Virus record (IMG/VR): IMGVR_UViG_3300042445_002197
Coordinates: 1 to 31,352 of that record
Origin: a virus
Length of the DNA stretch: 31,352 nt
Reading direction: 5' to 3' (one strand)
The stretch's first letter is position 1. Each line of letters opens with the position of its first letter. Position numbers and translations under genes: made by a program. Below, in pieces: positions 1-31,352 of the stretch. The notes under the pieces were generated by a model. That model saw only the letters and a list, made by a program, of their open reading frames with translations. It searched no databases and was not told where the DNA came from.

Positions 1-198
1 CACAAGTAATAATGCTATGGAGCCCAATGAAACAAAGGAAACCTGCTGATTGTGACAGCAGTGACAGCGTTTTACCAAACTTTGCCAATGACAAGGATAA
101 GGCCCATAAATAGGGTACTTCCTACAAAACTTTTGTGAAAATACTAAAACGCTGTCACTAGTACTGCTTCGTACCGATAGGTACCGATACAGATAGAT

Positions 199-213
199 AT
201 GTCGTCACGACAT
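199..213. promoter_or_regulatory. Short palindrome, possible operator
   Basis: ATGTCGT and ACGACAT form perfect 7-bp arms around a single central C. The palindrome lies between the iterons and the DnaA box, in sequence without a gene. It has the size and symmetry of a dimeric regulator site. The binding protein is unknown; the HTH proteins in this window are candidates only by proximity. Confidence 0.35.
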
Positions 214-225
214 AACGATACAGGC

Positions 226-234
226 TGTGGATAA
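226..234 (-). promoter_or_regulatory. Perfect DnaA box
   Basis: TGTGGATAA reads as TTATCCACA on the minus strand, the canonical high-affinity DnaA box. Only one perfect copy is seen locally, between the palindrome and the last iteron. Together with the repeats and AT-rich stretches it supports, but does not prove, a replication origin that uses host DnaA. Confidence 0.5.
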
Positions 235-260
235 ACCTGTCACCTCGCTGTCACTAAATA

Positions 261-407
261 TTAAGTAACAATCAAGATAAAAAGCGTGATAACAGTAGCA
301 ATAGCGCTAACCCAAACAAGAGCGCTAACAATAGCCAACCTACGCCACATCACATACTCCCAAGGAACCTCACGCTGCTCCGCATCTAAAGATGCCATCT
401 TAGCCAT
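261..407 (-). CDS. Small membrane protein, 48 aa
   Basis: A 48-residue frame starts one base inside the stop codon of the preceding 28-residue gene (TAATG overlap), the same junction type used throughout the late operon. The first ~22 residues are polar and charged (MAKMASLDAEQREVPWEY) and end in Trp-Arg-Arg. A single hydrophobic helix from about residue 24 to the C-terminus follows, rich in Ala, Val, Ile and Leu. The Arg pair before the helix predicts an N-in orientation. No family is recognised. Its position beside the origin-like repeats suggests an early-region accessory gene; a lysis or host-takeover role is only a guess. Confidence 0.55.
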   Translation of the reverse strand: MAKMASLDAEQREVPWEYVMWRRLAIVSALVWVSAIATVITLFILIVT

Positions 408-881: not shown

Positions 882-2093
882 CTAGGCTAGTAGCGCCTTG
901 AGGTCTTGCGCCTCGCTGATTAAGCGCGACCATTGGCGTTCGGTGAGGTCATCGAACACCTCGCGTACCTCATCGAGGTTCATGCCCGAGTGTAGACACT
1001 CGACCAAGGTAACCGCGTCTGCCTGAGCAGGTAGCAGGTCGAGGTCTTTGAGCGCCTCGATGAATTCGCTACGCTCGTCCTTGACCTCGAAGTGGCGACT
1101 AATGAAGTCGTCCTCTAGGTGAGTAGTTACTAGCCCGAGGTTGCCCTCGACCGAGGAACGGAACGAGTAACTTGCTTGCTCACTCGCGGTTGCCTCCATG
1201 GAGGCGGTGAAGGTTCCCTCGAAGGTTAGACCCTCAAGCATGCGCTGAACCTGCTTGATACCCTCGCGCTTGACCCGCTTAATTTCGCGGTACACCTCAC
1301 CGATAGTGAACGAGGCGTTCATTCCGTAGATATCTCCAAGAGCCTTGACCTGCTCAAAGACATCGCCTAGTTTCGCAACCTTGGCGACCTTGGCTGAGGT
1401 GTCTAACTTGCGTAAGTACACCTTGCCCGCCTTGGTTATCTCCACGTTCCATCGGGCGGTGTCGCGTGCCTCGGTAGCCTCAACGAATTCGATGAGTGAG
1501 CGAGTTGAGAGCGCCTTACGGATACTCTCAGCCATGCCCGCCGGTACTGCCTTGGTGGCCAGTAGCGCGGTGGCCACCTTGCGCGCCCATGCCCTCATTA
1601 CCGCCAAGGCGATAATGTCTGCTGGCGAGTAACCTGCCAAACCAAGGTTGATACCGCCTTGGCGCTGGCTTGCCTCCTCAATGCGAACCAAGCGGTCAAA
1701 ATTGACCCACTCAAATTCTTGAGCAAACACCGAGGCAACGTGGCGCTTGTATCCGTCAAGGATACGCAACGCCTCAAGCGCCTCGAGGTTATCCTCACCG
1801 AGGCTAGCCTCGATGAGTGAACGGATACCCTTGACCTCGAAGCCTTGAGCGGTAGCCCAAGCCTCGAAGCCCATAGGCTTAGCCCATACCTCGACATCGT
1901 TCCAAGGCAGGAACGCATGCTCCGAGAACGGCTTAGCCTTGCGTGCCTTGGTTGCCTTGGCAACGCTAGCGCGCTGACCCTTGGCAGTAACCGCCTTACT
2001 GGCTTTTGCGCCAGTAATCGCCTCAACGAATTTAATCGCCTTAGCGCTATTTGCAAGGCGTAACGCCTTGCCGTCTATTTTGCGTGAACGCAT
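882..2093 (-). CDS. Unknown protein, 403 aa
   Basis: Complete gene with GAAAGG at 2102-2107 eight bases before the ATG and a terminator just past the stop. No family is recognised. The first ~55 residues are very rich in Lys, Ala and Arg, with repeats of the type KAxKxxKA, and look like a nucleic-acid-binding or disordered tail. The rest is predicted mostly helical with many Glu, Ala, Leu and Val and no Cys-rich site, signal peptide or membrane segment. The end is acidic (DDLTERQWSRLISEAQDLK). The gene is visibly more GC-rich than its neighbours and favours GAG, AAG and GCC, which could mean high expression or recent acquisition. It stands alone as a monocistron, divergent from the HTH regulator, suggesting an early or separately controlled gene. 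Real by coding pattern; role unknown. Confidence 0.8.
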   Translation of the reverse strand: MRSRKIDGKALRLANSAKAIKFVEAITGAKASKAVTAKGQRASVAKATKARKAKPFSEHAFLPWNDVEVWAKPMGFEAWATAQGFEVKGIRSLIEASLGEDNLEALEALRILDGYKRHVASVFAQEFEWVNFDRLVRIEEASQRQGGINLGLAGYSPADIIALAVMRAWARKVATALLATKAVPAGMAESIRKALSTRSLIEFVEATEARDTARWNVEITKAGKVYLRKLDTSAKVAKVAKLGDVFEQVKALGDIYGMNASFTIGEVYREIKRVKREGIKQVQRMLEGLTFEGTFTASMEATASEQASYSFRSSVEGNLGLVTTHLEDDFISRHFEVKDERSEFIEALKDLDLLPAQADAVTLVECLHSGMNLDEVREVFDDLTERQWSRLISEAQDLKALLA

Positions 2094-2400: not shown

Positions 2401-2904
2401 ATGCCTAATTATCAGAATCATCCTTTGCGGGTTATTCGTCGTCGCCATGGTTTGGAGATGAAGGAACTTGCTCGCTTGGCGGGGGTGTCGCGTGCTACTG
2501 TTTCTCAGATTGAGGAGGGTAGGACTAGGCGGCCTAATGAGCGTGTGATTGCTGTGTTGGCTCGTTTGTCTGGTGAGGATCCGAAGGGTTTGTTGGGTCG
2601 GGTTGTGGCTTGGGGTGAGCAGGGTTTTGAGGATGTTGTGCCTCGTCGTGCGTTGTCTGCTTTGCAGTTGCCTCCTGAGATGTTATCTAATTTGTATCCT
2701 TCTTTTATTTCGTGGCGAGCAGAGTTTGCAGATAACCCTACTCGTTTTGCTTCGTTTTTGCGTATTAATCGTTTGACGGTTGCTAAGTATGAGCGTGGTG
2801 GTTTTGTTGGGGGTATGCCTGATTCTTTGGCTCATGCTCTGGCTGATCGTTTGAAGTTGTCTGATGAGTATTTGCAGGCTGTTGAGGATTTGCCTCTTGG
2901 TTGA
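2401..2904 (+). CDS. XRE-type HTH regulator with second HTH-like domain
   Basis: 167 residues. A Cro/CI-type helix-turn-helix spans about residues 8-58, with the core ELARLAGVSRATVSQIEEG at 22-40. A second, more divergent copy is likely at about 115-155, where FASFLRINRLTVAKYERGG resembles the same helix pair. A 96-base in-frame upstream extension was rejected because it translates the promoter, including the -10. It likely represses or activates the divergent 403-residue gene or its own operon; binding sites are inferred only. The stop overlaps a downstream small gene. The architecture fits a phage repressor or early regulator, but no integrase is visible, so lysogeny cannot be claimed. Confidence 0.85.
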   Translation: MPNYQNHPLRVIRRRHGLEMKELARLAGVSRATVSQIEEGRTRRPNERVIAVLARLSGEDPKGLLGRVVAWGEQGFEDVVPRRALSALQLPPEMLSNLYPSFISWRAEFADNPTRFASFLRINRLTVAKYERGGFVGGMPDSLAHALADRLKLSDEYLQAVEDLPLG

Positions 2905-3796: not shown

Positions 3797-4606
3797 ATGC
3801 CTACTACTGGTGATTTTCCGTTACAGTTGTCATTACCGACAGGTGCTGACCCTGTAGATGTTTCTGTGTTGAACGCTAACTTTGAGAAGGTTAATGATTA
3901 TGCTGGAGAGAACGATACAGACATTGCTGCTATTACTGCTAACAATTGGGTTTCTACTAGCCGTATCGCTGATTCTGCTGTTACAACCGCTAAGATTGCT
4001 AATGCTAATGTTACGGCCGCGAAACTCGAAGCAACTTTAAACCTTACTGGTAAGACTGTTTCGGTTGCTGCCCCGTCTGCTGGTGCGCACGCTACGACTA
4101 AAACTTATGTTGATGCTCAGGATGCCGCCACACTGGCTTCGGCTAACACATATGCTGATGGTAAAATTCCTGGTTATGTTGTATTGGCTTCGGGTTCTTG
4201 GAGTGGGGCTGCTCCAACTGTCCCAACTTTGACTACGACTAATTATCGTCAACTTGTTGTTCTGGTAACTTTGTTAGTTAATGGTGGCGGTTTTTCTGAA
4301 ATGACGGTAAGTTTTACTGGGTTGACAAGTTATGACCAAGTAATTTCAAGTTTTGGTTCAACCTCTTTAACTACTTCAACCGCACAAACAAGTTTAAACC
4401 CTGGGACGATGCCGACCGGAACTGGATTTGTTGTTGAAGTTGACTACCCTGGACTTGCAATTAGGAAGACTATCACTGGCCGTTCAAACGTCAGAACTAT
4501 CAGTGCTCGCAGCACTAACGCCGCGGCTGTCACTGGTGTTACGTTTACTGTTCAGGGCAGTGCTTCAGGTGCTTCAGGCACGTACGAAGTGATCGGCGTA
4601 CGCTAA
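3797..4606 (+). CDS. Tail fibre-like protein
   Basis: 269 residues from the ATG at 3797; a TTG at 3791 would add two residues and sits a little closer to GAGG (3774-3777), so the start is uncertain. The N-terminal ~60 residues are compact. Residues ~50-130 carry the repeated linker pattern common in tail fibres (SRIADSAVTTAKIANANV, ATTKTYVDAQ), likely a trimeric stalk. The C-terminal half is Thr/Ser/Gly/Val-rich and predicted beta-structured, suitable for a receptor-binding tip. No chaperone or peptidase domain is seen. It is followed by a metallophosphoesterase, an arrangement partly mirrored at the right edge of the window after the second fibre gene. Confidence 0.65.
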   Translation: MPTTGDFPLQLSLPTGADPVDVSVLNANFEKVNDYAGENDTDIAAITANNWVSTSRIADSAVTTAKIANANVTAAKLEATLNLTGKTVSVAAPSAGAHATTKTYVDAQDAATLASANTYADGKIPGYVVLASGSWSGAAPTVPTLTTTNYRQLVVLVTLLVNGGGFSEMTVSFTGLTSYDQVISSFGSTSLTTSTAQTSLNPGTMPTGTGFVVEVDYPGLAIRKTITGRSNVRTISARSTNAAAVTGVTFTVQGSASGASGTYEVIGVR

Positions 4607-7727: not shown

Positions 7728-10700
7728 TTACTGTTGCAAGTCAGTCATGGTGGCAACGTATTCTTGCCAACCCTTGTTACGGTTTTCGATAGTGTCGCGC
7801 TCTTTGATTCGTAGACCGGTCAACCAGTTCAAAATAACCAGGTTTGTGTCTTTGGTGACTTGATCGGTAGTTTTCCCAACGTTTGATGCTCTTAATGCTT
7901 GCCCCGCAATTTGAGGAAAGAGCATTGCTGCAAGTTGATGTTCTGGACCTAAACCAAGTCGCTTAAACGCGTCTTCAACCAAAACTGGCATTGTTTCTTT
8001 TGTCCAACGGCCGCCCTGGGTAATTGGGGTTCCGTCCATGGTTTTGCCATTGAAATAGTCAAGAGGTAGGGATGCGGCGATAGGTAGCGATGCTATAGCA
8101 AAACGGTCCCAGGTTGCGCCAATGCTTTGACCTATCTGATTGGCAGGACTGTCGTAACCATTAAAACGAATTCCTGATAACCAACTGCCTGTTCCTAGTA
8201 GGTCTGTTGCAGGGTTGGATATGGTGAACGTGCGGAGTCGCCCGTCTTCATCAATGTATGTTGGGTCCATGTTTCCGCGAAGGTAACTTGGAACCAGTCC
8301 TGCTGGGTCAAAGTCACCAAACTGCTCAAGTTCCGCGCCCTGAGACTGCATGATTCCGTACTGGGCTTTTAGTCCAATAAGGATTGGCCCTGGTCTGTCT
8401 AGTAGGTTCATCATTACTGTTCCTAGAGTTTTGGCTCTCCAGGTGTAAAAAAGGATTCCCTGTCGCAAGTATTTTTGTGCAACATAACCTAGTCCCTGCA
8501 TTTGTGGGTGTATGCGGTTTACTTCTTTTGCTGCGTATTTAAATCCGTCGTCTAGGGTTTTCCAACTTGACTTTTGCAGGATTGAGGTGAACAGCGCAAC
8601 ACGCAACCAGTCGTCTCGCCCTGCAGCAACTTTTGCAATTTTGGTGTCAAAACGAGTGCCAAGCCCTGCGCGTTTGATTTTACCTAGGCTGCTGCCTGCT
8701 TCTCGTAGTGCATCGGTTCCACCTGCTTGAGTTTTTGGCACCGCACCTGCCCGCATAACGTAACCTTTACCAATAGCGTCGTAAGAAATTGCAACATCTT
8801 TTCCGCCTACCCTGATGACTACGCTGTTGTTAACAGTTGGGTCGTTTTCTGGGCGCACCTGGAACTCTTTTAAAGCAGGGGCAACTTTGAACTTATCAAT
8901 TGCTTTTAAAGCCTCTGCCTCGTCGATACCAATTTTTTCTACGTCTGCCCCCATTGCTTTCAGTATTTGTAACGAACGGTAATACGCTAATGGGCTTGCG
9001 ACGCCACCAGCGATAGCATTCCAAACAAAACCACCACCAGTGTTCTGGATCCAGTTTTTAGCAGTATAAGTAGTTGACGCTTTTTTCATAAAGTCTTGGA
9101 AGGGCTGGAAGAACAGCAAGAATCTACCAAAAGGGCCAGTTTTTTCTAAGTGCTTTACTCCAGTAAGGAATTTGGCTAGTTCTTGAAGTTCTGCAGCAAT
9201 CTGGCGAGGAATGTAATAACCTCTTGGAAGCAAGTAGATTAGTTCTTTTCCGTCGCTAGGGAAGGAAAGCGGCTTTATAGTTACCAAGTCTAGTTCTCTT
9301 GCCCGGGCGGGAGTAATGGAATCGATTGCGGTTCCGAAGGTGTCGATAACGCTGGCAGCAGAGGTTTGTAGTTCTTCACTGCGGCGCAGAGCAGCGTGGA
9401 TACCTACCAGGAAGTCGAATGGGTTTTGGATGTCCCATTCTTTCCATTGGTTAACAAAGTCTTCAGTGTTGCCCCTCTTCTGAAACTTCCAACCGTCGCT
9501 CAGGCGTTTAGGCTGTAGAACTTTCTTACCTGCTTCGTTTACTACTTCTTCCATGACTTCACGGTAGTTACCGGCACCCAGTTCACCAATGATGCGGTTC
9601 ATGATTACTTCGTTGTAGTTTGAGGATCGACCGATAAGGTTGCGCTGACCGCCACCAAAAATGGTTTTTGCAAACATCCAAACGTCTGCTACAGCCTCTT
9701 TAAGCAGCGTGTCGTCTGGTCCGATGAAGTCATCCAAAAGTTTTGCATCCTCAATTAGGTCAGCATATTCTCTCTTTGTAACCTTTTTGGCTAAAGGCTT
9801 TCCTGCTTCTGAGGTCAAGTTTTTTAGTCGACTCATAGCGGTCAAGGCTTTTACCAAAGATTCTTCTGGAGCCTGTTGAATAACTTTAAAAGCGTCTACT
9901 AAAACTTTTCTACCAGTCGCAGATTCATCTGCCGCATATTTAGGCATAATGCTGACAACATGCCTTGTAACATCTTCAGCGAACTGGGCTGTAGTGTTTT
10001 TAGTGTTTAGCGCAATTGCGGTAAGTGCATCACGGGTGTACTCCATTCCGTGGTTAGCGAACAGTTTAAACGTGTTGTTCATGGCTGAAATCCAGAAGTT
10101 TAACGAGAACTTGTTGTGACGGCCTGCGGTTTCGTTCAAACCAATTTCGTAGAGAAGGTCGTCATCTGCACCCATTTCGATGGCTTCATCAATTTTTTGA
10201 GCAAATGAGTCTTCAAAGATTACGTCTCGAGAGTCTTTTAGTGAGTCCAGGCGGGAGCCTGCTAGCCCTTCCTGGAACTCTTTAAGGGTTTTAGCCTCAG
10301 CACCTAGGACAATTCCGTCGGTGCTTTCTTTGGTTAGGATCATTTCTAGTGGACCCATTTTTGCACCGATTGCGGCGTTTAGGTCTAGGCGCGCCAACGC
10401 TTCCACAATAGGCTCTACTTGTTCGAATCCTAGTGCGTCGTTTAGTTCTTTTGCTGAGTCGATGACGGCTTGCATGTTTGTTCCGCTGCCGGACATGTTG
10501 CTTTCAAGCATTTTCTGCAAGTTAGTGATGATTGGCTTGCTAATCTTGTTTGCGTCGTAACGTAGTCTCTTGAAGGCAAAGGTGGCGTTTGCGGTGTGTC
10601 GTTTAAAGAGTTCCATAGCGTTTTCTGGTTTGGCTAGAACACCAACTACGTCTTCAATGATTTGGGTTACTCGCGCAAGACCTTTTTCGTCGGTAACGAG

Positions 10701-13700
10701 GCTTCCGATTGGGTTGCCTTTATCGTCAACTCCACGGGTAATTGTTTTGATGTCGTTAAACATTAGTTCACGCATCATGTACAGAAGGTCGCGGGCTTGC
10801 TCTTCAGAGAACCATTCGCCTTTTCGGTGGTGCATTGCCATCATTAGCGCACGCACTGGAGAGTAAAGCGAGGTGATTGGGATGCTGTTCATCGGACCTA
10901 CCGCAAACATGTTCTTAAACAGTGTTGGGCCTAGGACTTCGCCAATGTCTGCCATGGTTACGTAGGATCCGTAGTTTCCTAGTGCTCTTTTGCCTTCTTC
11001 GCTGATGTTTGACAACTTTTGACCAGTTGCTTTTATCAGGGTTGATAGTTCATTTTTGCCGTACAGGGTTAGGGTTGAACTTGGGTAGATGCCTCGGGCA
11101 TTTAACCATAGGTCGCGGAGGCGAAGAACCATAATGGCGCTTTCCGCAATGAACTGCTGGCGGCGAGGGTCTGCTACGTTGCGGAAACCTTTGTCTTCCG
11201 CAATTTTGCTTAGAGTTGAGAACATTAGTTTCTCTGACTCGTAAAGGTTTTCTTTATCAAAGTTGAGTTTGTAAGCAGCGTTTTCTGGGATTTCACCTTC
11301 GGCTGCCATTTGTTCAAGTTTGGCTTTTGAATACTTTGAGCGATACTGTCTACCCAAGATGTCTTCTTCAAGGAATTTTGCAATAGGCTTTTGACCTAAC
11401 CAACCAAAGTTACCTTTAACGTAACGGCCTACAGCAGTTCCACCAACAGCGCCAGCCAGGTCAATGATCCAAGATTGACCTGAAGCCTTTAGTTGGTTAA
11501 CTGTGGTTAGGAGCAGTTCGTAGGACTGGTCTACTGTGACTTCGTCATCAGGTAGGTCGTCCATCATTTTGCGAATAACGTCACCGTTTGGAACAACTAT
11601 TTCGCTAAAGAAGTCTGCAGTTCTAGCATCTCCGATTAAGAAAGTGCGCAACTGGCTGCGGCTCTTACTTAGGAACTCTAGAACATCTTTGCGTCCTAGT
11701 ACTTTGTCTGGCTTAATTAACTTGTCTGCACCCTTAATTCCAAGGCTGACTAGAATGTTTGCAATCTGTTCCTCAGTTGGGACAGGCTTACCGGTCTTCG
11801 GGTTGATCTGCCCAGGCTGTAGTTTGCTGTCTTTTCTTGGTAAGTAACTGTCGATTACGTCTTTGTAACTCTTGTATGGGCTGTTTCGACCAACTTTAGT
11901 CATGTTGATAAGGTGCTTCATTGCTGTAGCCCACTGGTCTTTGTCAGCAGAGGTCATGATTTCTTTGTTGCGAATCCAGGAAACGAACAGGCGGGGGTTG
12001 CCGTTTGCGATAACATCGTCAACGCTGGCTTTTCCGTCCCAGTTTGCAACAGGGTGTTTCACAACATCAGCATCTATTGCATCTTCAAGTTTTTTGACAA
12101 TCTTTTCAAAGTTTTCTTTTCTCTTTGAAAGTTTTTCTATACCGAGTTCGCCTTGTGTTACGGTGCGGGCAACTGCTTCTCTTCTGACTAGCGCCTGGTC
12201 TACTACGTTTTCGGCTAGGCTCATGTCGGTTGCGTGCCAGAAGCGTGCGTGGAGGTTTGCGCCGACACGTTCGATTGAGGTTTCGCTAACACGGATTTCT
12301 TGTTTGATAAAAGCGGTTAGGGACTTTAGGTCTACTGATAGTGGGAGTGAGCGGGCTGCTTCTTTTTTGGCGTCTGCTCGGGCTGCAGCGTTGACTGCTC
12401 TGTCGTAGTTTGACTCACGGACTCTGCGGATAAGGTTTTCTGCTACAACTTGCTGTGGTTCTTTGCTTTTGCCAGGTTTTGGCTTTGGAATGGCTTTTAC
12501 CGCCTGAATTAACCTCGCCACGTCGACGTGAGAGACTTCTGTTCCACTGGCAGGTACAAACACCTTCTCGCCCCTCTTAAGCCCTCCTAGGGTCTTCTGG
12601 AGGCTTTCTCCGAGTTGTGCGACTAAACCTCTGGTTATTTCGTCCAAAGCAAGAATTGTGTTTCCTAGCGCTTTTTCTGCGGCTTTGACGGCTTCTGGGA
12701 AGTCTGGGTTGATTAGATCGCTTGCCCGAACAGAGTTGCCGCCCATTAACCTTTCATTGTAAGTTTTTTGCGGCATAAGAACTTTGCCGGACATCCAGCC
12801 ATCGAGTTTTACTTTGCGGGCAGCAACGTCTTCGAGCAGGTCAGCATATAGTGCTTCTGCCTCTTTAATTAGGCGCTCTTCGTTGGCTAGAATCACCTTG
12901 TTTGACAGTTTGTTACCTGTTTGGCGACCAATGTTTCTAGTGTTGGTTTCAACTGAGTGGAGAAGGGCTGGGGTTACAAACTCAGTCCAAGCCTCATCCT
13001 TGGACAGTTCAACTATTGCAGCGGCTTGTTCCGACTTTTTCCGAATAGTGCTGAGCAGAGGGATGCCTGCCCTTTGAGCCAGCATGTCAATGTGGTCTGC
13101 GAAACGGCCACCTTCAAGTGAGTATTGGTGGCGGCTGGCAGAGTAAGCGTATGCAATGAACTCTGAACGCTGTCGATCGGCTGACTTTGCTTCTACGTGT
13201 GCAAAAACTTTTGGTAAAGCACTTCGGCTGAGTTGCCCCATACGGCTACTTCTGGTCCTAGTTACTGCAGCAAAGATTGCAGCAGCATCACCGTTTGGAG
13301 ATAAACCTAAAGCGTCCAAGTCAATTAGTGCTTTAATCTTTTTTGCATTCAACTGTTCCAGGTAGTCGCTTGCTTTCTTTATGTCGGCAGGGCTGACAAG
13401 TTCGGTGCGAAGTTTGTTGCGCTTCAAAGCGATGTCCATCAACTCAATGATTTTGTCGTCGTTAAGTTTGGTGATGTTCTTTGAGGTAATAACGGTTTTC
13501 TTACCGTTTATGTCTAAGGTTATGGTTTTCTTGTCGGCTTCTGCAGAAAGCAACTGGCGGGCTTTAGTGAACTTTTGGGCAGAAACTTGGGAGAGGGCTT
13601 CAGAGATTTTGTCAATGTCTACCCCTCTTGCACTGTCAACTACTTCAAGGGCTTCTTTTGGTAAGCCGATGCGGCCAAGGATGTTTAGAACAGACTTGTC

Positions 13701-15827
13701 TCGGATTGAGCCTGCTGCGGCTAACATTAGTGAATAAATTTCACCCTTTTGCATAGGGGTAACTTCTCGTTTGGCGGCTGCTGCCGCTTTTGCTTCCAGG
13801 TCAGTCGATGGCATGTTGAAACTTCTGATGCTTTCAACTGAAGACTTTAGAGGGTTAAAACCTGATTCACCGATTCGTTCGATAGTGTATCGGGCGCTTC
13901 CTGCGCCACCTAGGATGCCGGCTCGGTAGGTGATTCGGGCGGCTAGCAAAGACAGGGAAATACCTGCGTCTATTAGAGAATCTGCAGTAAGCGAGTCGGC
14001 AGGTAAGGCTTCGTCAATGTTGAAGTTTTTATCTCCACGGATTTCACGCAGACGCTGCCAGTCGTTCGCCAGGTTGTCGGGACCCCAAACTTTACTGGCA
14101 CTGTTTTTCTGCAAGTCTTTTTGGAAACGCTCCAAGAATACGGCTTCTTCACCGCTAGGTTTCTTGTCAATTCCAAGTAAAGTTCTAGGGTTAACTTTTT
14201 TACCCGAGGGGGCACCCTCAACCGCATCGTCTGTTTTCTTTGCACGGCTTGCTCTGAACCCGATAGGTTGTGAAGTTGCTTCATCCAAGAACTGCAGAAA
14301 TTCACGGTTTTCTGGGTTTTTGATGAAGTCATCCCAAACCTTTTTAACTGCTTCGTCGCTGCCTTTAGCGCCACGGGCAGCGTTCTGCAACGCAATACCG
14401 AGCATTGCGACAGGTTTTGCTGCCCGAACTTCAACATCAGGGCGAGAAACACGGTAAACAGGGGCGCGACCAGGAAAACTCTTTGCCACTTCGTCCGCAG
14501 CACGCTGAACAGCACGCTCAACAGGGGTGATGCCGAGGTCTGCTGCTTCTTGTGCAATGGCAGCCTGTGAAGTTTTACCCAACACTGCTTTAAACTTTGC
14601 AGCAACTTTAGGGTCGGCAAAAGACCTTGCGATGTCGTCTAAGTCTTTTGACTGTGAAGAAAGAATGTCATCAACGACTTCTTGAGGCAGGTTTTTGGCT
14701 TCTAGTTCTGCTTTTCTGGTGGCAAGGATTTCATCGGTGTAGTCTTTACCGATCCTTAGAATGTCTTCTTCTAGGAAGTCTGTGTCGTTTAAGTTTTCGC
14801 CTAGTTTTTTTGCGAGACCTGTGCGGAAACCAAACAAGGTTGTTTTTGCGGCTAGGCGGGCTTCGGCTTGTAGGTGGGCTTCTTTAAATCCACGACCCAT
14901 TTCTTTAAGAATGTATAACGCTGGGTTGGTGTTACCAATAGTGTATTTTGGTGCAGGTAGCGGGACAGCGTTTTCTACTCGCTTGCGAAGTTTTTTGCCT
15001 TCAACTTTTTTGAGTGGTTCGTAGAATGGGCGTGGGAGGTTCTGTACGTTTTTTAGAACTTCTGCAGCGTTGCCACCAGATTTTGCGTATTTGGTGGCGG
15101 TTGATACACCTCTGGATAAACCTTTTACGGCTCCACCGATACCTAATGTTGCGAAGGAGGCTGGGTCGAGAACAATGTCTAGGGTTGTTCCTACTGTGTT
15201 TAGTGGAGTCCATTTACCTAATAGGCCGTCCCAGTATGGGGTGTCGTCTAACCAGTTGTTGTTTCTTTTGAATTCTTCGCTACGGAAGATGTCTGTGTAG
15301 GATTCGGGTAGTGGTCGTTTATCGACTGGGTCGATCATTTCGTCGAAGCCTGGGATGACCGAGTTGGCTAGACCTTGACCAAAACCTACTGCCATGTCTA
15401 CGATTGAGGAACCGTACTCTAAAGCAACTTTTCCTACGTCTTGGTCTTCAATTGCAGCCATCACTTCGTCTTGGTGGCTGAAGCCTCGGTCGCTTGCTGT
15501 CATTGCGGCTCGACCGATTCCGGTGATTACTCTGAATGCGTAACCTACGGCCCCTAGTCCGCCTTCGACAACGGATTGACCTAGGTTGTATTCGGGGCCT
15601 TTGGGGGCTGGTGCGATGGCTTCTGCAGATATTGGTAGTCCACCGTCTGCGACGACAGGAGTGATGGGTTGGTTTGGAGCGCTTTGGATGTAGTCGGCTC
15701 TGCTGAGAGCGCTGGAAGGGGCACCATATCTGGCGTTGATAAATTTGGTGACGTTTGCGGGGAGTGCGGTTGGTATCTTGACGGATACTTTTGCGTTTAC
15801 GTCAGGTGCGTTTAGTTTGTCTGCCAT
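7728..15827 (-). CDS. Giant putative internal virion / DNA-ejection protein
   Basis: 2699 residues, the largest gene here, taking a quarter of the window, with AGGAAGG five bases before the ATG. It starts with a Pro/Ala-rich tail (1-80). Gly/Ala-rich hydrophobic stretches follow at about 81-115, 130-165 and 210-250 that could insert in membranes, then very long Lys/Glu/Ala/Leu helical sequence. Near residue 2450 a Trp/Arg segment (GILFYTWRAKTL) followed by LLDRPGP stands out; I associate similar segments with other giant phage virion proteins. Last in the late operon, after nozzle and internal-virion-type genes, it fits an ejected protein like T7 gp16 or the N4 virion polymerase, but no transglycosylase or polymerase motif is evident. 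No frameshift is seen. Structural role inferred from size and position. Confidence 0.6.
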   Translation of the reverse strand: MADKLNAPDVNAKVSVKIPTALPANVTKFINARYGAPSSALSRADYIQSAPNQPITPVVADGGLPISAEAIAPAPKGPEYNLGQSVVEGGLGAVGYAFRVITGIGRAAMTASDRGFSHQDEVMAAIEDQDVGKVALEYGSSIVDMAVGFGQGLANSVIPGFDEMIDPVDKRPLPESYTDIFRSEEFKRNNNWLDDTPYWDGLLGKWTPLNTVGTTLDIVLDPASFATLGIGGAVKGLSRGVSTATKYAKSGGNAAEVLKNVQNLPRPFYEPLKKVEGKKLRKRVENAVPLPAPKYTIGNTNPALYILKEMGRGFKEAHLQAEARLAAKTTLFGFRTGLAKKLGENLNDTDFLEEDILRIGKDYTDEILATRKAELEAKNLPQEVVDDILSSQSKDLDDIARSFADPKVAAKFKAVLGKTSQAAIAQEAADLGITPVERAVQRAADEVAKSFPGRAPVYRVSRPDVEVRAAKPVAMLGIALQNAARGAKGSDEAVKKVWDDFIKNPENREFLQFLDEATSQPIGFRASRAKKTDDAVEGAPSGKKVNPRTLLGIDKKPSGEEAVFLERFQKDLQKNSASKVWGPDNLANDWQRLREIRGDKNFNIDEALPADSLTADSLIDAGISLSLLAARITYRAGILGGAGSARYTIERIGESGFNPLKSSVESIRSFNMPSTDLEAKAAAAAKREVTPMQKGEIYSLMLAAAGSIRDKSVLNILGRIGLPKEALEVVDSARGVDIDKISEALSQVSAQKFTKARQLLSAEADKKTITLDINGKKTVITSKNITKLNDDKIIELMDIALKRNKLRTELVSPADIKKASDYLEQLNAKKIKALIDLDALGLSPNGDAAAIFAAVTRTRSSRMGQLSRSALPKVFAHVEAKSADRQRSEFIAYAYSASRHQYSLEGGRFADHIDMLAQRAGIPLLSTIRKKSEQAAAIVELSKDEAWTEFVTPALLHSVETNTRNIGRQTGNKLSNKVILANEERLIKEAEALYADLLEDVAARKVKLDGWMSGKVLMPQKTYNERLMGGNSVRASDLINPDFPEAVKAAEKALGNTILALDEITRGLVAQLGESLQKTLGGLKRGEKVFVPASGTEVSHVDVARLIQAVKAIPKPKPGKSKEPQQVVAENLIRRVRESNYDRAVNAAARADAKKEAARSLPLSVDLKSLTAFIKQEIRVSETSIERVGANLHARFWHATDMSLAENVVDQALVRREAVARTVTQGELGIEKLSKRKENFEKIVKKLEDAIDADVVKHPVANWDGKASVDDVIANGNPRLFVSWIRNKEIMTSADKDQWATAMKHLINMTKVGRNSPYKSYKDVIDSYLPRKDSKLQPGQINPKTGKPVPTEEQIANILVSLGIKGADKLIKPDKVLGRKDVLEFLSKSRSQLRTFLIGDARTADFFSEIVVPNGDVIRKMMDDLPDDEVTVDQSYELLLTTVNQLKASGQSWIIDLAGAVGGTAVGRYVKGNFGWLGQKPIAKFLEEDILGRQYRSKYSKAKLEQMAAEGEIPENAAYKLNFDKENLYESEKLMFSTLSKIAEDKGFRNVADPRRQQFIAESAIMVLRLRDLWLNARGIYPSSTLTLYGKNELSTLIKATGQKLSNISEEGKRALGNYGSYVTMADIGEVLGPTLFKNMFAVGPMNSIPITSLYSPVRALMMAMHHRKGEWFSEEQARDLLYMMRELMFNDIKTITRGVDDKGNPIGSLVTDEKGLARVTQIIEDVVGVLAKPENAMELFKRHTANATFAFKRLRYDANKISKPIITNLQKMLESNMSGSGTNMQAVIDSAKELNDALGFEQVEPIVEALARLDLNAAIGAKMGPLEMILTKESTDGIVLGAEAKTLKEFQEGLAGSRLDSLKDSRDVIFEDSFAQKIDEAIEMGADDDLLYEIGLNETAGRHNKFSLNFWISAMNNTFKLFANHGMEYTRDALTAIALNTKNTTAQFAEDVTRHVVSIMPKYAADESATGRKVLVDAFKVIQQAPEESLVKALTAMSRLKNLTSEAGKPLAKKVTKREYADLIEDAKLLDDFIGPDDTLLKEAVADVWMFAKTIFGGGQRNLIGRSSNYNEVIMNRIIGELGAGNYREVMEEVVNEAGKKVLQPKRLSDGWKFQKRGNTEDFVNQWKEWDIQNPFDFLVGIHAALRRSEELQTSAASVIDTFGTAIDSITPARARELDLVTIKPLSFPSDGKELIYLLPRGYYIPRQIAAELQELAKFLTGVKHLEKTGPFGRFLLFFQPFQDFMKKASTTYTAKNWIQNTGGGFVWNAIAGGVASPLAYYRSLQILKAMGADVEKIGIDEAEALKAIDKFKVAPALKEFQVRPENDPTVNNSVVIRVGGKDVAISYDAIGKGYVMRAGAVPKTQAGGTDALREAGSSLGKIKRAGLGTRFDTKIAKVAAGRDDWLRVALFTSILQKSSWKTLDDGFKYAAKEVNRIHPQMQGLGYVAQKYLRQGILFYTWRAKTLGTVMMNLLDRPGPILIGLKAQYGIMQSQGAELEQFGDFDPAGLVPSYLRGNMDPTYIDEDGRLRTFTISNPATDLLGTGSWLSGIRFNGYDSPANQIGQSIGATWDRFAIASLPIAASLPLDYFNGKTMDGTPITQGGRWTKETMPVLVEDAFKRLGLGPEHQLAAMLFPQIAGQALRASNVGKTTDQVTKDTNLVILNWLTGLRIKERDTIENRNKGWQEYVATMTDLQQ

Positions 15828-19292: not shown

Positions 19293-19951
19293 TATTCGTC
19301 CTCTGGAAGAACAACCTTAGTAGGGTAAAAATTTACGTCTACAGTGTTTTCTTGAGTCATTTGGCGGTTCATTGAGTCACGGAAACGCTGGTCTTGGTAA
19401 GACATTGCTTGCCAGTTCTCATCCAAACGGTATGCCTGGCCTAGAACGTAATCCATTACTTGGTTGTAGAAACGGTCAGGAACCTGCAAAAGGTCATTTA
19501 AACCTGTAAGGTTCTGTGGATAAGCAATGTAGTAAAGGGTAAGAGCACCTACACCATTTTCGTTTGCTGAAGGGTAAATGTAGATGTCGCCGTCCCATTC
19601 GTACCAAACCTTAGGGTCGCCTGTGGCTTCCATGTCAGGGTCGTCAGCACTAATGGTTTCCTGAGCCGCCTGGAAAGAGATTGCTTTTAGCGGGACACCT
19701 TTGTAGTGGATTCCTTGAATCTGATATACCGGGCTGTTCTCTGGAAGGGCGTAAAGGGTTTGACCTGCAACAACATCGGATGCTGCGCTACCTTTTAAAG
19801 TCTGGTTACTGCTGGCGATCTCTCGCTGCGCAGCGTTAACCCAACGTAACAAGTCAGCGCTTTTAAGTTCAACTAAAGCCTCATCGCCAAAGATACGTTT
19901 AACGTCTTCGGCTACTTCGTATGCTGTGCGTGTGTAAGATTCTCTAGGCAT
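19292..19951 (-). CDS. Head-tail adaptor / tail tubular A-like
   Basis: 219 residues. The N-terminal helices (YEVAEDVKRIFGD, ADLLRWVNAAQREI) followed by a beta region (LYALPENSPVYQIQGIHYKG, KVWYEWDGDIYIYPS) and a C-terminal helix (DYVLGQAYRLDENWQAMSYQ) match the ring-forming adaptor proteins of short-tailed phages (T7 gp11, P22 gp4 functional class). These dock on the portal and receive the nozzle. It lies between the capsid and nozzle genes as expected and overlaps the preceding gene by eight bases. Confidence 0.7.
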   Translation of the reverse strand: MPRESYTRTAYEVAEDVKRIFGDEALVELKSADLLRWVNAAQREIASSNQTLKGSAASDVVAGQTLYALPENSPVYQIQGIHYKGVPLKAISFQAAQETISADDPDMEATGDPKVWYEWDGDIYIYPSANENGVGALTLYYIAYPQNLTGLNDLLQVPDRFYNQVMDYVLGQAYRLDENWQAMSYQDQRFRDSMNRQMTQENTVDVNFYPTKVVLPEDE

Positions 19952-28017: not shown

Positions 28018-28269
28018 ATGGCAGAATCCCCAAATATTGAAGTAAATCAGTTGCATTTGTCGGCTGATACCGACACTGGGGCTACTGCTATCCATCATAC
28101 TCTTGGTCCGAAGCCTTTTCAAGCCTCACCTGGAAGTCACCGACATGATGGTAAAGATTCGGTGCGTTTAGATTTTAATGATTTAATGAATAGTTGGATG
28201 AACATTGATGGCGGTACGCCGTCAACGATTTATACTCCTATTCCTCACCTTGATGGAGGCGCAGTTTAA
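28018..28269 (+). CDS. Small fibre-associated protein, 83 aa
   Basis: 83 residues with no ribosome binding site, probably leaderless. The composition is polar with His-rich turns ([26 protein letters not shown]), a pattern met in short phage tail-fibre and baseplate-associated proteins that bind metal through His pairs. Its stop overlaps the fibre start (TAATG). It may be an adaptor for the collagen-like fibre or a small virion protein; no named family. Confidence 0.5.
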
Positions 28270-30251
28270 TGGCTGTTATTATTCAGATTCGACGTGGCAC
28301 TGCTGCGGAGTGGACTGCTGCTAACCCGGTTCTTGCTCATGGTGAGATGGGTGTTGAAACTGACACACTGAAGGTAAAGATTGGTGACGGATCTACTGCT
28401 TGGGTTTCTTTACCTTACTTTACGCAGGGTGCTACAGGTGCTACTGGCCCTGCAGGTCCTACAGGTCCGACTGGTGCTACCGGTGCTACTGGTGCTACTG
28501 GTGCGGCGGGTACGAATGGTACGAATGGTACGAATGGTACAAATGGTACGAATGGTACGAATGGGGTGGATGGTGATTCGGCTTACGAAGTTGCTGTAGC
28601 AAATGGTTTTGTTGGAACTGAAGCCGCTTGGTTGACTTCTCTTGTTGGAGCCACGGGTGCTACTGGTGCTACTGGTGCTACTGGTGCTACTGGTGCTACA
28701 GGTGCTACAGGGGCGGCAGGCGCGAATGGTACAAATGGTACAAATGGTACAAATGGTACAAATGGAGTGGATGGTGATTCGGCTTACGAAGTTGCTGTAG
28801 CAAATGGTTTTGTTGGAACTGAAGCCGCTTGGTTGACTTCTCTCGTTGGTGCAACTGGAGCGACTGGTGCAACTGGTGCAACTGGTGCTACAGGTGCTCA
28901 AGGTCCTATAGGTTTAACTGGTGCTACTGGTGCTACTGGTGCTACAGGTGCTACAGGAGCAACTGGTCCAGGTGTACCAACTGGAGGTACTGCTGGTCAA
29001 ATCCTTACCAAAAACTCGACCACAAATTATGACACTGTTTGGGCTGCACCTGGTGCGGCTGCTTACACCACTGTTGTAAAACAGTTGGTACGTAACGACA
29101 CTGGTGCAACTGTTACTAAAGGTCAAGTTGTTTACATAACAGGTGCAAACGGGACCCACGCTCTAATAGGTTTGTCAGACGCTGACACTGAATCAACTTC
29201 GTCAAAGACGCTTGGTATTCTTGACCAAGACTTGGCTGCTAACGCTGACGGTTACGTTGTCACTGAAGGTCTTATCTCTGACGTAAACACTGGTTCGGCT
29301 ACTGCTGGTCAATCTGTTTGGTTATCTTCAACTGCGGGGGGTTATGTTTTTGGTGCACCACCTGCTGAACCTGCGCACAGTGTTTACCTTGGTGTTGTTC
29401 AGCGAGCAAATAGCAGCAATGGTCAGATTCTTGTCAAAATTCAGAATGGTTATGAACTTAATGAGTTGCATGACGTGTTTACTGGTTCTGCAGTATCGGG
29501 CGATCTACTTAAATATAATGGTAGCGGTTGGATTAATTCAGCCCAGTCCACTTTGGCTATTGCCCCGTCACAGGTCACCGGTACTGCAGTCATAACTACG
29601 GATACCCGCTTGTCTGACTCACGCACACCTACCGCTCACGCTTCAACCCATGGTTCTGCAGGATCTGACCCTATTACTGTTGCACAGTCACAGGTAACTA
29701 ACCTAACTAGCGACTTGGCGGGTAAGGCTGCTTCAAGTCACACTCACGATACTGCTGATGTTACTAGCGGGACTTTTGCTATCGCCCGTATCCCTACGGG
29801 GACAACTGGTACAACTGTTTCCTTAGGTAACCACACGCACACTATTGCTAACGTTACTGGTTTGCAAACAGCGTTGGACGCAAAACTTACTACCGCTGAT
29901 ACTGGTTGGCTTACCTCTACCGTAATCAGTGCAGCAACAGGTTGGTCTGTAACTTCTTACAACATTAGAAGGTTAAACGGTATAGTAAACGGAATCCTTA
30001 CAGTAAGCCGTTCTGGTGGAAACGTAACAGTACCAGCAACTGGTAACATTACAAACCAAAACGTAGCAACCTTAACCTCTGGATGGTACAACACAACCTC
30101 AGACAGTGGAATGGTACTAACTAACGGTTCAGGTCCTCTTACAGGTGGATACATTCAATCAAACGGAACTATAACCATTAGCGCAATGTCATCTGGTGCA
30201 ACAATCTCAACTGGAGATACCTTCAGTTTCACACTGTTTGAAATGGTATAA
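28269..30251 (+). CDS. Collagen-like tail fibre with Mtd-type N-terminus
   Basis: 660 residues, with GGAGG nine bases before the ATG. Residues 1-50 ([20 protein letters not shown]) match the N-terminal domain of the Bordetella phage tropism determinant Mtd and similar fibres. Residues ~54-240 are Gly-X-Y triplets (GAT, GTN) forming collagen-like triple helix, broken twice by a near-identical cassette ([20 protein letters not shown]). The remaining C-terminal part is beta-rich with two His-x-His motifs ([19 protein letters not shown]) and a Gly/Ser/Thr tip. It is the likely receptor-binding fibre. Codon choice changes in the last ~300 bases towards A- and C-ending codons. No reverse transcriptase is in this window, so a diversity-generating system cannot be claimed. 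Confidence 0.8.
28566..28849 (+). repeat. In-frame duplicated cassette in fibre gene
   Basis: An 83-base stretch (28566-28648) recurs at 28767-28849 with one base difference, spaced 201 bases (67 codons) apart. It encodes the [11 protein letters not shown] cassette between collagen-like blocks. The triplet repeats on each side (GGTGCTACT, AATGGTACN) offer recombination substrates, so copy number may vary between phage isolates. Confidence 0.85.
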
Positions 30252-30299: not shown

Positions 30300-30524
30300 A
30301 TGCTAGAAGGACTAGCTCCAAAGGAAAAAGAATCAATCTGTTTTTTAATGAAGAAAGCAGTTACCGAACTAGATGATAAAGATTTGAAGATCCTTGATGA
30401 AGCAATCAAGAACCCTAAATGGTCTGCTAACGCATTAACCGATGCTTTAAACCAGCGAGGGTTTACTATCTCTCGCGGTGTAATACAAAAGCATCGCGAC
30501 GAAAGGTGTGGCTGTGTTAGATAA
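30300..30524 (+). CDS. Small HTH-type DNA-binding protein, 74 aa
   Basis: 74 residues from the ATG at 30300, chosen because AAGGAGG ends four bases upstream; an ATG seven codons earlier has no site. The first half is charged and helical (APKEKESICFLMKKAVTELD). The second half (SANALTDALNQRGFTISRGV followed by QKHRDERCGC) has the helix-turn-helix then His-Arg and Cys-x-Cys ending seen in many short actinophage HTH proteins. It overlaps the next gene by 11 bases. It may be a regulator or a small packaging DNA binder; only DNA binding is reasonably inferred. Confidence 0.65.
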   Translation: MLEGLAPKEKESICFLMKKAVTELDDKDLKILDEAIKNPKWSANALTDALNQRGFTISRGVIQKHRDERCGCVR

Positions 30525-31352
30525 CTTGCTACCTCAACCAGCTTGGCAACCGATCGAACGGGCAACCAAGATCAATATCACCGCACCTAAACCTTCTAAG
30601 AAGGTCAAAACAAAACACACGGTTCACGTATGTTTACCTGACCCTCAGATCGGTTACCGAGTCCTGAACGGTGAAAAAGATCCGTTCCATGACGAACACG
30701 CTATGGGTGTTGCCTTGCAGATCGTTAACTACTTGGAAGAAACCGACCGAGTGGACTCAGTGATTAACCTTGGTGACTTCCTAGACCTCCCAGCACAGGG
30801 GCGGTTTGAACAGGAACCAGCGTTCGCTAACACCACTCAGTTAGCTTTTGACCGTGGACATTTGTTCCTACAGGAGCAGCGTGCTGCTGCCGGACCGGAC
30901 GCCACCATTGTTCTTATCGAAGGTAACCATGATCGTCGAATGGAGAAGTTCATTCAAACTAATGCGATCTCAGCTTTCGGTTTGAAAAAAGCAAACACAG
31001 ACAGCCTACCGGTCATGTCTATCCCTTATTTATTGCGCCTTGACGAACTTGGAGTTGATTACATTGACGCATATCCTGCCGGAGCCCACTGGATTACAGA
31101 CCAGTTACGGGCAATCCACGGAAATAAAGCTCGTAGCAACGGATCCACAGCTGCAGCCTACACAAACGACACACCCCACATCTCAACCATCTTTGGTCAC
31201 GCCCACCGATTGGAGATACAGAGTCGAACAGTCTTTGACCGAAACGGAAAAATCAAATCAATGGCAATCTCACCCGGCTGTCTCTGCCGTGTGGATGGAG
31301 CTGTTCCGTCAGTCAATGGATCTACAAAAGTGGACGGCACCCCAGCCACCTA
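30514..31352 (+). CDS. Calcineurin-like metallophosphoesterase (copy 2), 3' truncated by window
   Basis: Starts at GTG 30514 with GAAAGG ending seven bases upstream and overlaps the HTH gene by 11 bases; it runs off the window after about 279 codons. The motifs are in the same order as in copy 1: D-x-Q in LPDPQIGYR, GDFLDLP, GNHDRR, IHG and GHAH, plus the shared SPGCLCRVDGAVPSVNGST block. The two copies are very similar over the whole visible length, so they are paralogues with the same fold. They differ in the N-terminal ~35 residues and in codon choice, this one using more A- and C-ending codons. Like copy 1 it follows a fibre locus. Substrate unknown. Confidence 0.85.
   Translation, partial: MLDNLLPQPAWQPIERATKINITAPKPSKKVKTKHTVHVCLPDPQIGYRVLNGEKDPFHDEHAMGVALQIVNYLEETDRVDSVINLGDFLDLPAQGRFEQEPAFANTTQLAFDRGHLFLQEQRAAAGPDATIVLIEGNHDRRMEKFIQTNAISAFGLKKANTDSLPVMSIPYLLRLDELGVDYIDAYPAGAHWITDQLRAIHGNKARSNGSTAAAYTNDTPHISTIFGHAHRLEIQSRTVFDRNGKIKSMAISPGCLCRVDGAVPSVNGSTKVDGTPAT

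Follow-up and report, generated by a model that had tools for sequence, protein, structure and literature searches.

A conserved cluster of facing iterons and DnaA boxes, a likely replication origin in an uncultivated tailed-phage family

The left end of IMG/VR virus record IMGVR_UViG_3300042445_002197, a 31,352-base record classed as linear and analysed here over its whole length (the window), carries within its first 260 bases a cluster of short repeats and DnaA boxes that is a real and conserved non-coding feature. An origin function of the cluster is likely, and we are fairly confident that it represents the replication origin, or the initiator-binding core, of an uncultivated tailed-phage family, in which the phage's primase-polymerase/P4-D5 helicase would bind the repeats (iterons) and host DnaA would assist. 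The arrangement is conserved among relatives, and in other phages similar iterons are associated with the gene for this enzyme. A first-pass annotation made from the sequence alone had read the region as a host-DnaA-dependent origin or an origin-linked control region. An origin or a control region linked to one is supported as the best reading and the DnaA boxes are real and conserved; the emphasis on DnaA, however, gives only half of the account, because in other phages the iterons recur beside the primase-polymerase gene and exact DnaA boxes mostly do not. The elements of the cluster, in window positions, are the following.

1-4, plus strand: remnant of a DnaA box, CACA, the last 4 bases of TTATCCACA, cut by the contig end and recognised by alignment with relatives G001, G002, G003, G006 and G007
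52-59, plus strand: iteron 1, GTGACAGC, conserved in the relatives with 1 mismatch in G003
60-74, plus strand: left arm of a perfect 15-bp inverted repeat
61-68, plus strand: iteron 2, GTGACAGC, 9 bp from iteron 1, also seen in the alignment of relatives
75-144, no strand: spacer of 70 bp, 63% AT, with AAACTTT-type repeats, a candidate unwinding region
145-159, minus strand: right arm of the inverted repeat
151-158, minus strand: iteron 3, GTGACAGC, inverted, also seen in the alignment
171-190, plus strand: 10-bp direct repeat GTACCGATAG/GTACCGATAC, units 171-180 and 181-190, 9/10 identical
198-214, no strand: 17-bp palindrome TATGTCGTCACGACATA, its central 15 bp identical in the window and the five relatives
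226-234, minus strand: perfect DnaA box, TGTGGATAA on the plus and TTATCCACA on the minus strand, kept in G001-G003 and degenerate in G006 and G007
236-243, minus strand: iteron-like site with 1 mismatch, CCTGTCAC, at alignment offset +37
247-254, minus strand: iteron 4, GTGACAGC, inverted, also seen in the alignment

The first-pass annotation had named most of these elements, and the four octamers (two tandem, two inverted), the repeat of 10-bp period, the perfect DnaA box and the 15-bp palindrome (core ATGTCGTCACGACAT, 199-213, with flanks that extend the symmetry to 17 bp) are all present. The inverted repeat is indeed perfect (arms 100% complementary) around an interior of 70 nt, but its arms measure 15 bp rather than 14, and the interior described as AT-rich is only moderately so, with 63% AT vs 52% in the whole window and 6.0% of 70-base windows equally rich. 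Within the direct repeat, TACCGA is invariant across the alignment. The only other exact GTGACAGC of the window lies at 4526, and its second exact DnaA box is well away from the cluster, at 19515. The density of octamers exceeds chance, since only 1 of 60 shuffled windows produced any 8-mer with four or more copies in 210 bp; among 40 of 42 entries for the unshuffled sequence, 8-mers of this density fell only in the cluster and in a repetitive collagen-like gene at ~28.2-29 kb. The region was also correctly described as lacking a convincing gene: no open reading frame (ORF) of at least 60 amino acids (aa) starts before 286, 1-254 is overlapped only by two ORFs, 28 and 33 aa in length, and no reading frame is conserved over 1-260 in the five relatives, which align by motif with insertions and deletions. 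Motifs kept while the intervals vary are expected of protein-binding sites and not of a gene. In G001, however, the small ORF that borders the cluster reaches over the last iterons and the DnaA box.

Relatives were gathered through a 403-aa neighbouring protein (G001) and through DNA words of the cluster and a search with the G001 primase-helicase (the others); among cultured phages, neither megablast nor blastn with the window as query produced a useful match. Ten contigs encode the primase-helicase, and the cluster is present in all five that also carry the flanking amidoligase gene and thus span the locus (G001, G002, G003, G006 and G007). The remaining five have neither amidoligase gene nor cluster, so that the place of the cluster is not sampled there. 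Conserved iteron spacing, which the annotation had suggested looking for in related phages, was found: offsets from the palindrome are identical in the window, G001 and G002 (-147, -138, -48, 0, +27, +37 and +48, the +37 site being mismatched in the window and G002), and the iterons, palindrome and DnaA box follow in the same order at similar offsets in G003, G006 and G007. The cluster is also larger than the window shows, since the contig end cuts the site and the region first described is its right-hand part. To the left, the relatives extend into a divergent pair of DnaA boxes, 29 bp apart start to start in all five, of which the window retains only the CACA of the right-hand box. All 16 exact TTATCCACA boxes in the records of the five relatives lie inside the cluster (3 + 3 + 4 + 3 + 3); the number expected is 0.35 per genome. 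Copies of GTGACAGC inside and outside the cluster number 6/2 in G001, 4/0 in G002, 4/1 in G006 and 5/3 in G007.

The G001 enzyme, the putative initiator, matches phrog_2478 'DNA polymerase/primase' over its full length (670 bits) and TIGR01613, for the P4-family helicase domain of phage and plasmid primases, at 264 bits (cut-off 108.7), matches the D5_N domain, and contains DxD- and SGHG-type motifs that may belong to an N-terminal primase-polymerase domain of the archaeo-eukaryotic type; the G002 enzyme is 94% identical to it. The Pfam Prim-Pol domain was matched in the homologue of Arthrobacter phage Peas only and not in that of G001, and a Pox_D5 C-terminal match was obtained for the homologue of Listeria phage LP-030-2 only. 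The gene is absent from the window because the window is a fragment cut before it. A helicase-primase gene expected to the left does exist in the relatives, but on the circular map of G001 it lies ~9.1 kb left of the site and is not adjacent. Proteins scanned comprised ten of the window, ten of G001 and the window (Pfam), ten of G001 (PHROGs) and ten more of the window, small ORFs being left out. These scans found the primase-helicase, an SNF2-type helicase, an exonuclease and a RusA-like resolvase; among the scanned proteins there was no DNA polymerase besides the primase-polymerase itself, no dnaA and no winged-helix Rep-type initiator gene (the 403-aa neighbour being uncharacterised). Genes for primase-polymerase/D5-helicase proteins were matched in 743 of 50,697 phage records at E 1e-20; a search of genome contigs for the enzyme returned 71 stretches, none of them confirmed.

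The association of iterons with this gene is seen in cultured phages. In Gordonia phage GMA4 and Mycobacterium phage MarkPhew, whose primase-polymerase is ~36% identical, the gap behind the gene for this enzyme contains a tandem pair of repeats with an inverted pair opposite to it. A single score for tandem plus inverted (head-to-head) repeats was applied over the fetched 8-9 kb locus of these two phages, the source of the idea, and of eight further enzyme-bearing phages. In nine of the ten, the top-scoring head-to-head site of ~9-bp repeats lies 125-490 bases 3' of the enzyme gene. The scores of these sites were 28-34, vs a mean of 24.8 and a maximum of 28 in 60 shuffles of five loci, and 23-29 in eight control pieces from four phages without the enzyme (the 29 coming from a non-coding gap of Arthrobacter phage Adat). 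The repeat words differ between groups and are largely confined to the gap, as for AGTGACA in Peas and PeggyLeg03 (8 in/0 out) and GCACAGAT in Validus (6/0); the short word of GMA4 is less confined (11/20; its 9-mer 7/2). The Arthrobacter word AGTGACA is nearly the same as the iteron word of the window. Exact DnaA boxes are absent from the repeat clusters of the other phages, GMA4 excepted, and an annotated hypothetical ORF covers the repeat region in Peas, ZoeJ and Validus. The annotations of the structural relatives Adat and Jasmine (Arthrobacter), DS1 (Cellulosimicrobium) and Shocker (Microbacterium) include a DNA polymerase; DnaA boxes of the form TT[AG]TCCACA number 0 or 1 per whole genome in these phages.

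A further sample of nine D5/primase phages, picked after the idea had formed, was mixed in outcome. WheatThin has its best site in the 3' gap with a score of 34 (possible 34), but its enzyme shows no D5 domain by NCBIfam or Pfam, so this is not a clean case; Streptococcus phage Javan346 has its best site in the 3' gap with a score of 26, tied with another site elsewhere. GTGACAG/GTGACGG repeats are visible by eye in the 3' gap of MalagasyRose, where the detector gave 26, from the gene end, and 3'-gap repeats were recognised by eye only in LP-030-2. Repeated AACTATCCACC/GGTGGATAG words were observed in that phage (L133, 4836-5123) in the gap 3' of its NrS-1-like primase gene.

Contigs were also sought with nothing but an iteron string of 18 bases, AGTGACAGCAGTGACAGC. 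It retrieved 26 stretches, one of which was G001, and the other 25 were tested. A dense cluster, with at least four GTGACAGC close together, occurred in two (L013 and L027), each of which carries a gene for the enzyme (E 9e-131 and 1e-237 with Peas as query), while no enzyme match was found in the other 23, many of them short fragments that could miss the gene (Fisher's exact p 0.003). In one of the two (G013), the iterons start 9 bases past the enzyme stop codon, with seven exact copies in ~230 bp; in the other (G014), six iterons lie beyond the enzyme gene and two inside the gene end.

These arrangements are compatible with a bidirectional loading scheme. The phage's own primase-polymerase/P4-D5 helicase would bind the GTGACAGC iteron pairs on both sides, and, because the left iterons and the inverted right iterons face each other across ~70 bp, two rings of the helicase would be loaded in a head-to-head orientation. 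The rings could then open the ~70-bp spacer and depart in opposite directions, after which the enzyme would prime synthesis. Host DnaA on the divergent box pair and the third box may help melting, or may bring in the host polymerase or other host proteins. Such a mechanism would resemble that of SF3-helicase initiators and the scheme put forward for plasmid pRN1.

Several results weigh against this origin assignment or limit its support. Among the ten cultured phages, the best site of Eponine lies elsewhere, its gap holding a weaker inverted pair, and the score of 28 in Peas and PeggyLeg03 equals the shuffle maximum. Seven of the ten, all from the subfamily Weiservirinae, cannot count as independent cases, and GMA4 and MarkPhew, also among the ten, had prompted the idea. 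When scored in this way, the cluster does not come out as the top site of the window's own locus or that of G002, because its right arm has a single perfect iteron. Adat (score 29) and Jasmine, annotated with DNA polymerase I and without a primase-polymerase, have a tandem inverted repeat of their own, so the arrangement is not exclusive to the enzyme. Shambre1, JCL1032, AbbeyMikolon, Phives and Armstrong, five of the nine phages sampled later, have no 3' gap and no such cluster in the fetched locus (AbbeyMikolon, Phives and Armstrong are annotated with DNA polymerase I), and the density threshold of at least four GTGACAGC was fixed after the counts were seen. No winged helix was found in the G001 enzyme, which had no such Pfam match and a structure model of pLDDT 34. 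Lastly, the expected change of GC skew at the site fits two of four genomes and fails in the other two: in G001 and G002 the cumulative minimum lies ~2.1 kb right of the cluster, at a divergent helix-turn-helix (HTH) gene where the transcription strand switches, a loose fit, and in G006 and G007 the cluster stands at no strand switch. GC skew was therefore dropped as origin evidence, being inconsistent across the four genomes. As a separate observation, the repeats of Adat (L117, ~43728-43850) and Jasmine (L118, ~45227-45370) are of a GGATAG type, both tandem and inverted; they lie in a large gap without coding sequence and may be an origin of these phages' own.

The cluster could alternatively be a promoter/operator region, its iterons and palindrome serving as operators for a phage repressor (e.g. 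the HTH protein of 2401-2904) of a leftward early operon that starts with the amidoligase gene. Its position 5' of that leftward gene in G001, G002, G003, G006 and G007, the Cro/CI-type gene 2 kb away and the palindromes, which fit dimeric repressors, are in keeping with such a role. Nevertheless, no exact GTGACAGC lies near the start of the HTH gene itself, the sole other window copy being that at 4526; two other contigs have the iteron word as well, there 3' of the primase-polymerase gene and ahead of other genes; and an operator has no need of perfect DnaA boxes, 16 of 16 of which fall in the cluster. We regard this explanation as unlikely, although operator and origin functions may coexist at the cluster.

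Also to be weighed is a single-stranded stem-loop origin, in which the inverted repeat acts as a hairpin and not as two protein sites. The crenarchaeal plasmid pRN1, which encodes the primase-polymerase/SF3 helicase ORF904, is described as having a ~100-bp stem-loop 3' of the primase-helicase gene that is required for replication; in the same work, two iteron arrays in phage BIP-1 were discounted as origins and a stem-loop was preferred (PMC4234260). Both systems, as far as pRN1 is described there, have a large inverted repeat with an interior of 58-70 nt in a replicon with a primase-polymerase plus D5/SF3-type helicase protein, and the dimensions are comparable, with a 15-nt stem and a 70-nt loop here vs a 21-nt stem and a 58-nt loop in pRN1 (PMC4234260). 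The inverted repeat of the window likewise spans ~100 bp (60-159), and in the other phages examined (nine of ten cultured; G013 and G014) the site also lies 3' of the enzyme gene. In the family of the window, by contrast, the site is ~9 kb from that gene and carries DnaA boxes, and its arms, unlike those of the stem-loop as described for pRN1, are iterons. A hairpin alone leaves unexplained the tandem direct ~9-bp copies of the left arm and the extra inverted copies outside the hairpin, and each arm in G003, G006 and G007 consists of tandem sites whose flanks are mismatched, without a single long stem. A hairpin origin therefore seems rather improbable, and the results here suggest that the stem-loop appearance in these phages arises from the facing iterons.

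That the site is a DnaA-only origin or a DnaA-titration site, with the GTGACAGC repeats binding something unrelated to initiation, is very improbable, for although three or four perfect DnaA boxes and the fixed 29-bp divergent spacing are kept in all five relatives, the iteron arrangement is conserved along with them and yet occurs without boxes beside the enzyme gene in other phages, and no TAG/TAA tract of the DnaA-trio trinucleotide motif is conserved next to the boxes in the alignment (by eye). The missing tract, together with the lack of dnaA among the scanned proteins, also sets the cluster apart from a bacterial oriC.

Iteron origins such as P1 oriR, F oriS and that of pSC101 combine short initiator repeats, DnaA boxes and AT-richer DNA in one site per replicon, the iterons forming one long same-direction array of ~19-22 bp units. 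The cluster is similar in its direct repeats and DnaA boxes (two direct plus two inverted exact iterons; three to four boxes in the relatives), in its somewhat AT-richer DNA and in being a single site of the replicon, and different in that its iterons are 8-9 bp long and stand head to head; it may represent, in replicons with a primase-polymerase/D5 helicase, a variant of the iteron origins. Cluster K mycobacteriophages (Adephagia, Amelie, ZoeJ, MarkPhew and others) and GMA4 show the same succession of a tandem ~9-bp pair, a gap of ~90-115 bp and an inverted pair, but with other words (GCACAGAT, GTACAGAT, GGACAGAT, GGGTGCC) and adjoining the enzyme gene. GMA4 resembles the family of the window in having two DnaA boxes around the repeats, whereas seven Cluster K loci have none. 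The 17-bp SAS/ESAS inverted repeats of Cluster K are described as mostly 4-13 bp apart and upstream of the start-associated sequence (PMC3203893), unlike the arms discussed here, which are 70 nt apart in the window and 92-96 nt apart in the Cluster K gaps. The repeats in the discussion of PMC12699233 are likewise SAS/ESAS and different from the present arrangement. In the titles and abstract openings of the open-licence papers found, the arrangement is not described as an actinophage origin, which is a weak negative.

More tentatively, and as a conceivable generalisation that we would not yet favour, pairs of ~9-bp iterons that stand head to head and are contacted directly by a double ring of primase-polymerase/D5 helicase might constitute a recurrent and so far unrecognised class of phage origin, in which the group-specific word could predict the enzyme. 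In the present family, the origin would have moved away from the enzyme gene and become coupled to host DnaA by the divergent boxes, and the pRN1 'stem-loop' would be an origin of this class viewed as a hairpin. Genes for a primase-polymerase/D5 helicase are widespread among phages, and their actinophage origins are not described in the open-licence literature found. If the iterons are binding sites of the enzyme, the origins of several laboratory phages in culture would become predictable, and the family of the window would be a case of a phage seemingly without its own replicative polymerase that links a self-encoded helicase to host DnaA.

Three genes follow the cluster to the right in the window.

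261-407, minus strand: membrane-protein-like ORF of 48 aa abutting the cluster (translation; similarity to G002)
882-2093, minus strand: 403-aa protein, the next long gene (family and structure searches)
2401-2904, plus strand: Cro/CI-type HTH regulator of 167 aa, divergent (family scans)

In G001, which is complete by a 127-bp end repeat, the site is likewise bordered by the small membrane ORF, the 403-aa protein and the HTH regulator on one side, and by a leftward amidoligase/glutamine-amidotransferase operon on the other. The latter is seen in L002 (7344-10281), where a class II glutamine amidotransferase comes after an amidoligase; the two lie left of the putative origin in G001 and in the other relatives that span the locus. 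The 403-aa protein had no PHROG, Pfam or PDB-sequence match, and its predicted fold was poor (pLDDT 59), with no structural match at E 0.001. It is disfavoured as the initiator, its homologues being 32-71% identical while the iteron word is constant, and a resemblance to sigma factors was an impression that found no support. It is ~36-38% identical to its G002 homologue, vs 92-99% for neighbouring genes, and could be a gene next to the putative origin that is hypervariable or has been exchanged.

The late genes of the window are podovirus-like in the family scan (portal, major head, terminase), and the host is probably a member of the Actinobacteria, as the terminase and primase are similar to those of Arthrobacter, Cellulosimicrobium, Microbacterium and Mycobacterium phages. 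A 2,699-aa ORF without PHROG match (7728-15827, minus strand) is strongly divergent from G002, aligning by few blastn pieces at 66-80%, between flanks that are 92-95% identical. The tail protein of 28269-30251 (plus strand) contains collagen-like Gly-X-Y repeats. The right end of the window (30508-31352) truncates another metallophosphoesterase-like gene, the second one, with ~70% DNA identity to the counterpart in the relatives of the 4667-5620 gene.
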